Shown: piece after piece, positions 25,023 through 47,266 of the stretch
How the letters are laid out: each line of letters starts with the position of its first letter
Position numbering within the stretch: position 1 is the first letter of the stretch
Origin: a virus
Direction: 5' to 3' (one strand)
IMG/VR virus record: IMGVR_UViG_3300042473_001540
Location: 1-64,000 of that record
Length of the DNA stretch: 64,000 bases
The notes under the pieces: generated by a model
Database searches by the model: none
What the model was told of the DNA's origin: nothing
Seen by the model: the letters and a program-made list of their open reading frames with translations, nothing else
Position numbers and translations under genes: made by a program

Positions 25023-25135
25023 AATTGCCATCGAGGTTGGAACAGCCTCCCAACACACCATGAGAATGGTAACTAGCCGGCAGCAATCACCTAGCTGGTG
25101 AAGAAATCCGGAAGTGGCATCCGGCGATGGCGATT
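25023..25135 (+). ncRNA. Structured RNA closed by an 11-bp helix
   Basis: AATTGCCATCG pairs with CGATGGCGATT (one G-T). Inside are GTTGG/CCAAC, ACCAT(GAGA)ATGGT with a tetraloop and TCACC(TAGCT)GGTGA. About 113 nt, between tRNAs, without a reading frame. Same style as the RNA at 21556. Confidence 0.5.
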
Positions 25136-28752: not shown

Positions 28753-29007
28753 ATGAATATCACTTCTACTAGAGTGGCTCCCACAAGTGAGGAAATCACT
28801 GCTGCAAGAAAATGGGTTCGAAAACAGTTTCCCTATGCACTTGCGCCATCGTATAGTCCAGGACAAGGCCATTTGATGTTCAGGTTCATGGAAGAAACTT
28901 TTGGTCCTTGTGACGTCTGCTGGACCTATCTTGAGCCAGAAGTGTTGTTTAAAACAGAAGAAGATCGAGCAGCATTTTTACTCAGCTGGGGAAAATGGGA
29001 CGAATAG
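28753..29007 (+). CDS. Small FxLxW-family protein
   Basis: 84 residues. C terminus ..FKTEEDRAAFLLSWGKWDE matches the closing pattern (acidic/polar, then F-x-L-x-W) of the small proteins at 47.9-50.0 kb. The N terminus resembles none. No domain known to me; the shared end could be a helix packing on a beta-strand. Message probably leaderless. Confidence 0.55.
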   Translation: MNITSTRVAPTSEEITAARKWVRKQFPYALAPSYSPGQGHLMFRFMEETFGPCDVCWTYLEPEVLFKTEEDRAAFLLSWGKWDE

Positions 29008-29059
29008 CCTGCATGGATCATTTGCAGCTAGCAAGATGCTGCTATATACTATGTACTGT

Positions 29060-29222
29060 GCCGGATTAGCTCATTTGGTAGAGCAATTGATTTTTCCGTG
29101 GCGGGATAATGCCACCAACTGGTGAATAAATTTACCAGTTGTTTGTGGGCAACACTGGCCTAAAGCCAGTACGCCAAATGGTAATCAATAGGTGGTCAGT
29201 TCGAAACTGACATCCGGCACCA
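29060..29222 (+). tRNA. tRNA-Lys (TTT) with 87-base insertion in the anticodon loop
   Basis: Acceptor GCCGGAT/ATCCGGC, D-arm GCTCATTTGGTAGAGC, anticodon stem ATTGA/TCAAT, T-loop TTCGAAA, A73 and CCA are canonical. The loop reads TTTTT, then 87 bases (29096-29182), then AA; removing the insert gives a 76-nt tRNA with loop TTTTTAA. The insert folds into three perfect hairpins: GTGGC/GCCAC, AACTGGT/ACCAGTT and ACTGGC/GCCAGT. It is far shorter than a group I intron. Whether it is removed is unknown. Confidence 0.75.
29096..29182 (+). other. Three-hairpin insertion in tRNA-Lys anticodon loop
   Basis: Hairpins at 29098-29115, 29117-29140 and 29154-29170. No frame and no group I or II core seen. 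Junction ambiguity of one T at either end. Confidence 0.65.
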
Positions 29223-29241
29223 TAATTGAAAGGCAGCAACA

Positions 29242-29823
29242 ATGCAACAGCTTCAAACCTACAGCAATCTCATTTGGAGTTTTGATGGGGCTATGAGCGA
29301 CAGTCTTTGCAGTCTGTTACAGGACCACATGAGCCTTTTAAAATTCAGTAATCAACCCAGTATTGATGGTCGCATGCCTTGGGAAGACCAAGACGACTTG
29401 CCTTATAACCAAATACAAGACATCACAGTCAAACGTGCTATAGAGGCGTATCGCTTCACCTGTAGTCAGTTGGTATATCAAGTCACAAGGCAATTTGCCT
29501 ACCCCAACTACACTGACTTAGTGCTGTGGCGGCCTGGACGACAAATGCATGAACACAAAGACAATGGTTACACTGACGACAGCAATCTCCGTCCTCGAGT
29601 TTGGTCATCTGTTACCTATCTCAACGACGACTATCAAGGCGGAGTGACGTTTATAAAAAATGAACGTGGTGAATACTATAGCTCAGCACCTCGTAAGGGG
29701 CGGATAGTGATTTTTGCCAGTGATGACCGTTGCACGCATGGTGTCACACCTGTTGAGGGTGGGAACAGATTTACGTTAAGTATTTGGTTCGCAACTGATC
29801 CCTACGCTCTTGAGCGCACTTGA
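29242..29823 (+). CDS. 2-oxoglutarate/Fe(II)-dependent oxygenase
   Basis: 193 residues. Double-stranded beta-helix signature: HEHKDNG (HxD, about residue 110), a WSSVTYLNDDYQGGVTFI strand block, and CTHGVTPVEGGNRFTLSIWF with the distal His and the Arg that binds 2-oxoglutarate. This is the prolyl-4-hydroxylase-like type common in T4-like cyanophages. Substrate could be a protein residue or nucleobase. It follows a tRNA and precedes smr. Confidence 0.82.
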   Translation: MQQLQTYSNLIWSFDGAMSDSLCSLLQDHMSLLKFSNQPSIDGRMPWEDQDDLPYNQIQDITVKRAIEAYRFTCSQLVYQVTRQFAYPNYTDLVLWRPGRQMHEHKDNGYTDDSNLRPRVWSSVTYLNDDYQGGVTFIKNERGEYYSSAPRKGRIVIFASDDRCTHGVTPVEGGNRFTLSIWFATDPYALERT

Positions 29824-29832
29824 CTTCAACTC

Positions 29833-30183
29833 ATGCCACTACGAGACGAGGACAAGAAGCTGTGGCAACAGGTGATGCAAGGGGTTAAGCCATTAACCAC
29901 TGCAACTCAAGTCCCCTTGCCTCAGTCTCTCCCAAAAACAAGTTCGTCATACCATAATCCCCTTCACACTTGGGATTTACATGGCATGACCTTGAGCGAA
30001 GCCTATCAAAGAACTATTGAACAAGTGTCAAACAAACATTTTCCCAGTCTAACCTTCATCACTGGCAAAAGTGGATTGATGCAACAGGAATTTTCACATT
30101 GGTTGGAGAAGAATCCAGCTGTGCAGCGTGTGGAAAGTTTGCCAGGTGGTGGGGCCTTCCGGGTGTATCTCAAGAAAAAATAA
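29833..30183 (+). CDS. smr: Smr-domain protein (MutS2 C-terminal-like nuclease)
   Basis: 116 residues. HTWDLHGMTLSEAYQRT (LDLHGxT), FITGKSGLMQQEFSHWL (TGxG-like) and GGGAFRVYLKKK are the Smr motifs in order. Smr domains nick DNA or cut RNA, in bacteria often on stalled ribosomes (SmrB). Given the many translation genes here an RNA role is possible. The stop is directly followed by the Gly tRNA. Confidence 0.83.
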   Translation: MPLRDEDKKLWQQVMQGVKPLTTATQVPLPQSLPKTSSSYHNPLHTWDLHGMTLSEAYQRTIEQVSNKHFPSLTFITGKSGLMQQEFSHWLEKNPAVQRVESLPGGGAFRVYLKKK

Positions 30184-30763: not shown

Positions 30764-31390
30764 TTGTTCAATTTACAAGCTATTGATCGAAGTTTGTTGT
30801 GGAAGCTGGTGTGTTTCCACACATTTGTAATTGCTCTCAGCAATTATCTAGTGACAATCAAATTTTCAATGTTTGGATTGCCGCTAACCTGGGCTGCATT
30901 TACTTTCCCACTTATTGTGGTGGCAACTGACTTAACTGTGCGGTTGGTTAACAAAGAAAATGCACGAGCTATTGTTAGTGCAGCTTTTGTGCCAGCAATT
31001 ATTGCCAGCATTGCTGTTGTGTATCTCAGCGGTGCTCCCTCAAGTGTGGCTTGGCGTATTGGCCTTGCATCTGGTGTTGCTTACCTCTTCAGTAACCTTA
31101 TGGACGTGTTTGTGTTTCAAAAGGTGAGAGAGCGACTTCAAATGTGGTTTTGGGCACCTGCCATCTCAGCTGTGTTTGCCAACATTGTAGACACCTTTGT
31201 GTTCTTTGCTGTAGCCTTTTACAACAGTGCTAACGCCTATATGGCAGCCAACTGGCACATTCTTGCATTGAATCAAACTGGAGCCAAGGTGCTGGTATCA
31301 GCAGCAGTGATTCTGCCCATTTATGGTGTGCTGTTGGCTTGGTTGCAAACCCGAGTTGAACGAGACATTATGGGGCCAACAGGCTCATAA
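30764..31390 (+). CDS. yhhQ: Queuosine precursor transporter (YhhQ/VUT family)
   Basis: 208 residues, about six membrane helices. Family pattern: ALSNYLVTIKFSMFGLPLTW, FTFPLIVVATDLTVRLVNKE, RIGLASGVAYLFSNLMDVF and a C-terminal ILPIYGVLLAWLQ. YhhQ imports the queuosine precursor preQ0/preQ1. Phages use such transporters for 7-deazaguanine DNA or tRNA modification. TTG start chosen because AAGGAG is well placed. No other queuosine gene is in this window. Confidence 0.85.
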   Translation: MFNLQAIDRSLLWKLVCFHTFVIALSNYLVTIKFSMFGLPLTWAAFTFPLIVVATDLTVRLVNKENARAIVSAAFVPAIIASIAVVYLSGAPSSVAWRIGLASGVAYLFSNLMDVFVFQKVRERLQMWFWAPAISAVFANIVDTFVFFAVAFYNSANAYMAANWHILALNQTGAKVLVSAAVILPIYGVLLAWLQTRVERDIMGPTGS

Positions 31391-40124: not shown

Positions 40125-40248
40125 GGATCCGTGGTCTAATTGGATAAGGCAAGAGCCTTCCGGTCCCGCAGGTAGCATTCAAGGTTCGAATCCTTGGGGA
40201 CCGCTCCTAAGCTCTTCGATGGGGGTTCGAATCCCTCCGGGTCCGCCA
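40125..40248 (+). tRNA. tRNA-Arg (TCT) with 47-base insertion in the anticodon loop
   Basis: Acceptor GGATCCG/CGGGTCC, D-arm GTCTAATTGGATAAGGC, anticodon stem AGAGC/GCTCT, T-loop TTCGAAT, G73 and CCA. The loop is CTTC + 47 bases (40161-40207) + TAA; without the insert it reads CTTCTAA (anticodon TCT). The insert itself has an acceptor-like stem CGGTCCC/GGGACCG and a complete T-arm CAAGG(TTCGAAT)CCTTG, i.e. a tRNA minihelix. Confidence 0.72.
40161..40207 (+). other. tRNA-minihelix insertion in tRNA-Arg
   Basis: Acceptor-stem plus T-arm of another tRNA, lacking D- and anticodon arms, ending CTCC. Could be a recombination product of two tRNA genes or a mobile tRNA-like piece. Confidence 0.6.
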
Positions 40249-47192: not shown

Positions 47193-47266
47193 GGCCCCAT
47201 AAGACAAAGGTAGTCAGCTGGACTCTAAATCCAGTGGTGTGAGTTCAAATCTCACTGGTGCCACCA
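47193..47266 (+). tRNA. Amber-suppressor-type tRNA (anticodon CTA)
   Basis: Acceptor GGCCCCA/TGGTGCC (one mismatch), anticodon stem CTGGA/TCCAG with loop CTCTAAA, so the anticodon is CTA and reads UAG. T-arm GTGAG(TTCAAAT)CTCAC, A73, CCA encoded. Own promoter and terminator, so it is a dedicated unit. CTA suppressor tRNAs are known in stop-codon-recoding phages; here TAG is still a frequent gene end. Confidence 0.8.

Follow-up and report, generated by a model that had tools for sequence, protein, structure and literature searches.

How might a phage use a tRNA gene whose anticodon loop is split by a long insert? The question is raised by positions 29060-29222 of the stretch analyzed here (the window), which covers bases 1-64,000 of a virus record 309,756 bases long (IMGVR_UViG_3300042473_001540). 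The first-pass annotation had described a 76-nt tRNA, CCA included, split by an 87-base insert, and ARAGORN with introns allowed agrees, calling an 87-nt anticodon-loop intron at this position. Plain ARAGORN makes no call for the split gene (a standard tRNA finder can thus overlook phage tRNA genes), and the Rfam tRNA model gives it 13.7 bits, below the gathering threshold of 29. ARAGORN finds 18 tRNAs in the window when run plainly and 20 with introns allowed, the two extra calls both being split genes: this one and another, with a 47-nt insert, at 40125-40248. The remainder of the record, searched in 13 stretches, yielded no further tRNA. Three other IMG/VR contigs (L006-L008) are identical to the window, with zero mismatches, over 19,820 bases around the split gene; they are the same phage rather than independent relatives, and the split gene is therefore not a one-off assembly error.

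The features assigned to the split gene are the following.

29060-29093, + strand: predicted 5' exon of tRNA-Thr(UGU), positions 1-34, ending at wobble U34 (ARAGORN with introns, nearest-tRNA test, empty-site arm in L200)
29094-29180, + strand: 87-nt structured insert, putatively an intron (fold z -4.55; the relatives L216, identical to L246, L170, and L243 have theirs at the same U34/G35 site)
29098-29115, + strand: hairpin P1, loop with the shared motif GGATAAT(G) (fold; pair comparison)
29116-29141, + strand: hairpin P2, 11 bp, free to vary in sequence (pair comparison with L216)
29148-29175, + strand: hairpin P3, 3 + 6 bp with an internal loop, apical loop CUAAA (fold; pair comparison with L216)
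29174-29180, + strand: 3' end of the putative intron, CCAAAUG (CCAAANS in all four distinct members)
29181-29222, + strand: predicted 3' exon of tRNA-Thr(UGU), positions 35-76, CCA encoded

Just downstream lie an ORF for an Smr-domain protein (29833-30183) and a Vut_1 transporter (30764-31390), the latter perhaps for a queuosine precursor. The Smr-domain ORF, 0.6 kb away, was considered as a shared nuclease neighbor and rejected, since none of the ORFs scanned in L216 (seven) and L170 (three) matched Smr. Upstream, an Rfam skipping-rope RNA (25026-25132, 44.5 bits) directly follows a pair of tRNA-Lys genes.

Identity of the tRNA and site of the insert

The gene had been annotated as tRNA-Lys, with the insert placed between the anticodon and position 37; neither assignment holds. 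With the loop masked, the 15 nearest tRNAs in a library of 1,784 distinct phage tRNAs, which is Thr-rich (173 of 1,784) through the way its loci were found, are all Thr (13 tgt, 2 agt). None is Lys, and that identity was rejected on this count. The split tRNA also has G1-C72, C2-G71, and A73, which are Thr-like by identity rules. The loop halves (5' half UUUUUCC..., 3' half ...AAAUGGUAA) are by themselves compatible with GGU, UGU, or UUU, so that it is the tRNA body that decides for Thr.

The body alone would also allow a Thr(GGU) product, from a cut at 33/34; the choice of UGU rests on empty-site arms. The window's joined anticodon arm, GAGCAATTGATTTGTAATCAATAGGT, is present uninterrupted in another phage tRNA (L200). 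Deleting 29094-29180 recreates the L200 arm exactly, and a shifted cut gives a different anticodon. The relatives introduced below have their own uninterrupted counterparts: the arm of L195 matches L216, and that of Synechococcus phage S-H25 matches both L170 and L243. If the product equals these arms, the site is between U34 and G35, because only that cut recreates them. Spliced in silico, the gene gives a perfect tRNA-Thr (ARAGORN score 117.8). As read from body and arms, the split gene is a tRNA-Thr(UGU) with its insert inside the anticodon.

The 309,756-base record yielded no second Thr tRNA. The codon ACA is the phage's commonest for Thr: long ORFs (at least about 180 aa; not all are genes) contain 5,243 Thr codons, of which 1,982 are ACA. 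The window also holds a tRNA with a CUA anticodon (47193-47266, called Pyl); TAG ends 38 of the phage's 175 long ORFs (not all genes), so there is no sign of wholesale TAG recoding despite this tRNA.

Structure and relatives of the insert

The first-pass annotation had also proposed three perfect hairpins. There are three, and P1 (5-6 bp) and P2 (11 bp, one G-U) are uninterrupted, but P3 has an internal loop between helices of 3 and 6 bp. The predicted fold is more stable than those of shuffled sequences, with z = -4.55 and 0 of 200 shuffles as good (computed on 29093-29179, one base early).

Relatives were found by searching IMG/VR with interrupted-tRNA patterns, followed by ARAGORN with introns allowed and then by tighter patterns. 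There are at least four distinct members: the window (87 nt), L216 (87 nt), L170 (78 nt), and L243 (73 nt), all with the insert at U34/G35 of a tRNA-Thr(UGU). Their fold z-scores are -4.55, -4.88, -5.36, and -5.18 (0 of 200 shuffles as good in each case; the window and L216 stretches were taken one base early). Common to all four are a P1 loop region of GGATAAT or GGGTAAC, a second hairpin whose sequence varies freely, a short A-rich third loop, and a CCAAANS end; the L170 and L243 inserts have three hairpins with the motif GGATAATG and end in CCAAAAG. The L243 record also has an intronless tRNA-Thr(UGU) adjoining the split one.

The phages themselves are well diverged. The sigma factors of the window and L216 phages are 40.5% identical over 484 residues, and their other shared proteins 29-44%; their flanks around the split gene match at chance level (117/225 and 116/229, or 0.52 and 0.51, against 0.50 +/- 0.02 for random 200-mers). 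Their inserts are identical in 69 of 95 aligned columns (0.73; 200 random 87-mers gave a mean of 0.49 and a maximum of 0.57), and their exons at 29/34 and 33/42 positions. For L170 and L243 the corresponding figures are 60/79 for the insert and 33/33 and 41/42 for the exons, with flanks (123/232 and 87/162) inside the range of random pairs.

These changes preserve the helices. In pairwise counts on helices named by hand, the 40 insert pairs compared include 8 compensatory and 3 one-side changes, with none broken: 5 compensatory and 2 one-side between the window and L216 (n = 21), and 3 and 1 between L170 and L243 (n = 19). By hairpin, the window and L216 differ by a single one-side change among 5 pairs in P1; by 3 compensatory and 1 one-side change, with none broken, among 10 in P2; and by 2 compensatory changes among 6 in P3. 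P1 of L170 and L243 has 2 compensatory changes in 6 pairs. The exon stems likewise have no broken pairs across the four sequences, and several pairs changed on both sides.

An insertion by chance into a gene now decaying would account for a broken anticodon, but we consider this highly improbable. Four sequences from diverged phages share the site, the end motif, and the three hairpins, with no broken pairs in the helices compared pairwise, and three further contigs are identical to the window. The first-pass annotation had named simple disruption, with relatives lacking any intact version, as what would speak against its proposal; L216, L170, and L243 all keep the insert.

The two sub-families, window/L216 and L170/L243, are less firmly connected with each other. 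An automatic four-sequence alignment leaves most insert pairs broken in one or more sequences, because the hairpins of the two sub-families are not lined up. A covariance model of L170 and L243 gave 11.4 bits (E 0.35) for L216 and 7.5 bits (E 2.9) for the window in 25 kb with filters off; with default filters, neither was matched in 469 kb. This link between the sub-families is weak, so that the case for a shared ancestry of the four members is built on their site, layout, and motifs.

Further searches were unproductive. The window tRNA had no match in a phage collection. With L170, L216, L243, L211 (see below), and the Arg-type split tRNA as queries, the matches listed (for one query, the best 20 of 115) included only tRNA halves or intronless tRNAs. 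In a genome contig collection the intron pattern went unmatched, and a looser one gave two chance matches. Several candidates were discarded: a half-tRNA match in Rhodobacter phage RcXuper, where no tRNA could be closed; L260-L268 from the tighter viral patterns, a single repeated stretch without a tRNA; and L153, L254, and L272-L274 from the same patterns, which are not tRNAs.

Candidate routes of removal

The reading we favor, with somewhat better than even confidence, is that the insert is an intron cut from pre-tRNA-Thr, with the exons sealed by RNA-repair enzymes of the phage. The split gene, the phage's only Thr tRNA gene found, would be transcribed whole. In the precursor the acceptor, D, T, and anticodon stems would pair, with the three-hairpin insert hanging from the split anticodon loop (U32 U33 U34 ^ intron ^ G35 U36 A37 A38). 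Cuts after U34 and before G35 might be made by a phage or host endoribonuclease recognizing the P1 loop and the CCAAANS end; the cloverleaf would hold the halves together, and healing and sealing would then yield a tRNA-Thr(UGU) able to read ACA. In T4, anticodon-loop nicks in tRNA-Lys are repaired (PrrC, Pnkp, Rnl1), and the likeliest sealing route here would use the phage's own Pnkp-like kinase-phosphatase and T4 Rnl1-type ligase.

Candidates for these enzymes are present. The window phage encodes an Rnl1 with a T4_Rnl1_C domain, presumably the tRNA-specific part, as well as an Rnl2-like ligase, and an AAA_33 kinase and a metallophosphatase in a Pnkp layout; it has no match to RtcB or to EndA. 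EndA-type splicing was rejected, with no match to the endonuclease (PF01974) at E values up to 1 in any of 22 phage records, including G000, several of them fragments; as a control, the same model matched in 5 of 14 control genomes, 4 of these archaea.

Rnl1 or Rnl2 matches were found in 5 of 6 chosen records with anticodon-loop inserts (the window, L078, L097, L211, and L112, but not L243) and in 9 of 31 other tRNA-rich records (at least 70 kb; size was not matched, and some of the 31 have weaker interrupted-tRNA calls). The association is suggestive only. The L243 record, an 82-kb fragment, has no Rnl1, Rnl2-type, or RtcB match, and the L216 and L170 contigs (16 and 33 kb) are too short to judge ligase content. 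Sinorhizobium phage Phosso has homologues of the ligase and the kinase-phosphatase about 9 kb apart, with no interrupted tRNA in 468.5 of its 469.5 kb (inserts of 8-160 nt).

As a second possibility, which we regard as unlikely but worth stating, the insert may itself act as a ribozyme, self-splicing or doubly self-cleaving and only 73-87 nt in size, perhaps with closure by the ligases. The conserved loop and end motifs, the fixed site, and helices paired across diverged phages are all consistent with this, and in all four members the exon UUU or CUU can pair, by eye, with the AAA at the intron 3' end, a pairing that would place the splice sites side by side. However, Rfam intron and ribozyme families gave no match up to E 10 on 501 bases (28900-29400), conserved unpaired bases are few, and we know of no splicing RNA so small.

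Bacterial tRNA introns are known as group I, which have an invariant final G and a 5' exon ending in U. A shrunken group I intron would explain the position after a U, which is U34 in all four members and typical of group I tRNA introns; 34/35 is also the site of the cyanobacterial tRNA-Leu introns. The first-pass annotation had judged the insert too short for group I, and rightly so. It has 87 nt against about 200 or more for group I, and it lacks an RF00028 match, at gathering in the window as well as on 28900-29400 at E values up to 10; in L078, by contrast, that model detects a group I intron. With no RF00028 core, and with a final C rather than G in the L216 insert, the idea was rejected and is the least credible of those considered. 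The L078 match (1871-2055, 58.3 bits) lies among tRNA genes, possibly itself within a tRNA.

It is also conceivable, if rather doubtful and a little more so than catalysis by the insert, that the insert is never removed, the split tRNA serving instead as a decoy, a regulator, or a non-coding RNA with structure of its own (bait for anticodon nucleases would be one example). Splicing of the insert is a prediction, and L243 has a second, intact tRNA-Thr(UGU). The canonical tRNA body, unbroken stems, and intact loop halves of all four sequences argue against a retained insert, which would leave the window phage without any Thr tRNA found. Removal followed by enzymatic sealing remains the preferred reading.

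Other split tRNAs and known systems

The second split gene of the window has a different kind of insert.

40125-40160, + strand: 5' exon of the second split tRNA, probably tRNA-Arg(UCU) (ARAGORN with introns; junction ambiguous by one base)
40161-40207, + strand: 47-nt insert, an acceptor stem and T arm (mini-tRNA) with a 4-nt 3' tail (fold)
40208-40248, + strand: 3' exon of the second split tRNA, CCA encoded (ARAGORN with introns)

The insert consists of CGGUCCC...GGGACCG enclosing the T arm. The joined product is called tRNA-Arg(tct), with a score of 124.4; its body neighbors are mixed (5 of 15 are Arg-tct, and the best single match is His), and an Arg(UCU) identity is probable. The predicted fold of the Thr insert has no such tRNA-like acceptor and T arm.

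Longer tRNA-like units, with UCCA directly before G35, split tRNA-Thr(UGU) at U34/G35 in L078 (9989-10179) and L211 (8889-9050; identical to L225). The L211 unit folds as a cloverleaf and the L078 unit does not (minimum-energy fold); ARAGORN scores neither alone as a tRNA. Three anticodon loops in L097 (2224-2380, 3871-4023, and 5005-5159) are split by a small 5' hairpin and a mini-tRNA, the design seen in the Lak-A1 phage discussed below. Such tRNA-like units could be released by the ordinary processing enzymes RNase P and RNase Z, with 3'-OH and 5'-phosphate ends as the result; this route leaves the three-hairpin insert unexplained.

Other inserts were seen in passing. In L112 (c6675-6792), tRNA-Thr(UGU) is split at 34/35 by a single long 42-nt hairpin whose loop has CGATAACG. 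At about 28/29, on the 5' side of the anticodon stem, inserts of 40-55 nt with a hairpin followed by AC(A/T)GCA occur in L037, L054 (two), L058 (two), L069, L102, L104, L111, L113, and L123. Another family at about the same position (51-64 nt) ends near GTTACT(T), some members having TTTTCCC...GTGGCG; it occurs in L032, L043, L074, L089, and L106 (two), and possibly L064 and L098. Together with L091, the two 28/29 families cover 18 tRNAs in 15 loci, picked by score. RtcB matches are present in the L037, L102, and L064 records; Rfam at gathering gives only tRNA for L064, L074, L089, and L106.

It seems possible, and we put it forward tentatively, that large phages carry several unrelated families of mini-introns at fixed tRNA sites: U34/G35 of tRNA-Thr(UGU), for three-hairpin RNAs or nested tRNA-like units, and about 28/29 in the anticodon stem of other tRNAs, for the two further motif families. 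RNA catalysis or tRNA-processing nucleases would excise them, and ligases of the phage would close the gap, with neither EndA nor group I catalysis taking part; all this would amount to undescribed tRNA-splicing biology.

The first-pass annotation knew of no bacterial tRNA intron of this type. This picture was incomplete: tRNA introns of jumbo phages are on record, and the window phage itself has a second split tRNA. Lak megaphages have conserved introns in the anticodon loop, one of them in tRNA-Thr(TGT) (Devoto et al., 2019, PMC6784885); the abstract terms them enigmatic, and only some have a tRNA-like part (PMC6784885). As in the window, a jumbo-phage tRNA that is intact in other respects holds an insert within its anticodon loop. 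In Lak-A1 (MK250018) we found one clear interrupted tRNA (L310, c12483-12647), one probable (c4831-5017), and weaker calls; both of these inserts have a 5' hairpin and a tRNA-like acceptor/T-arm unit, whereas the window Thr insert has no tRNA-like part. The window Arg insert is nearer the Lak kind, but without its 5' hairpin.

A 2026 survey of jumbo phages with alternative codes recognized intronic sequences in tRNAs (n = 262, 77.06%), which could encode another tRNA; as far as the portions consulted go, it gives no three-hairpin family, site, or mechanism (PMC13037316). The window phage differs from those surveyed in still using TAG as a stop. A three-hairpin family is likewise not described in what we saw of the literature on phage tRNA introns (two Lak papers and PMC13037316). 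The insert is thus a new structural family of a known kind, and both the kind and the ligase idea are already on record; new, as far as the literature consulted shows, are the structural family, the exact site with its empty-site proof, and the pairing evidence. The three-hairpin intron offers a small splicing substrate for the reported phage tRNA introns.

Group I introns likewise interrupt otherwise intact bacterial tRNA genes (reviewed in Hausner et al., 2014, PMC3984707), and the phage introns known by 2014 were, in the sections consulted, all in protein genes (PMC3984707); the window insert differs from group I introns in size, in having no Rfam match, and in lacking an invariant final G. 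The bulge-helix-bulge introns of archaea and eukaryotes are similarly short, lie in the anticodon region, and are removed by cutting and ligation, but they usually sit one base downstream of the anticodon (PMC4090602, consulted in part); the window insert is at 34/35, with no EndA match in 22 phage records.

RNA repair in jumbo phages has been treated before (PMC7824862), and Rnl2 ligases have been linked to possible tRNA-intron removal in an archaeal virus (PMC8651126; both consulted in part). In the T4 tRNA-Lys system, the nick made by PrrC is closed by Pnkp and Rnl1, enzymes of the same types as the window phage has for closing a cut anticodon loop; the T4 system repairs damage, whereas the window phage would be excising a genetic insert. 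A conserved intron of 73-87 nt within a phage anticodon, together with tRNA-repair ligases, would, if true, give those ligases a constructive role.
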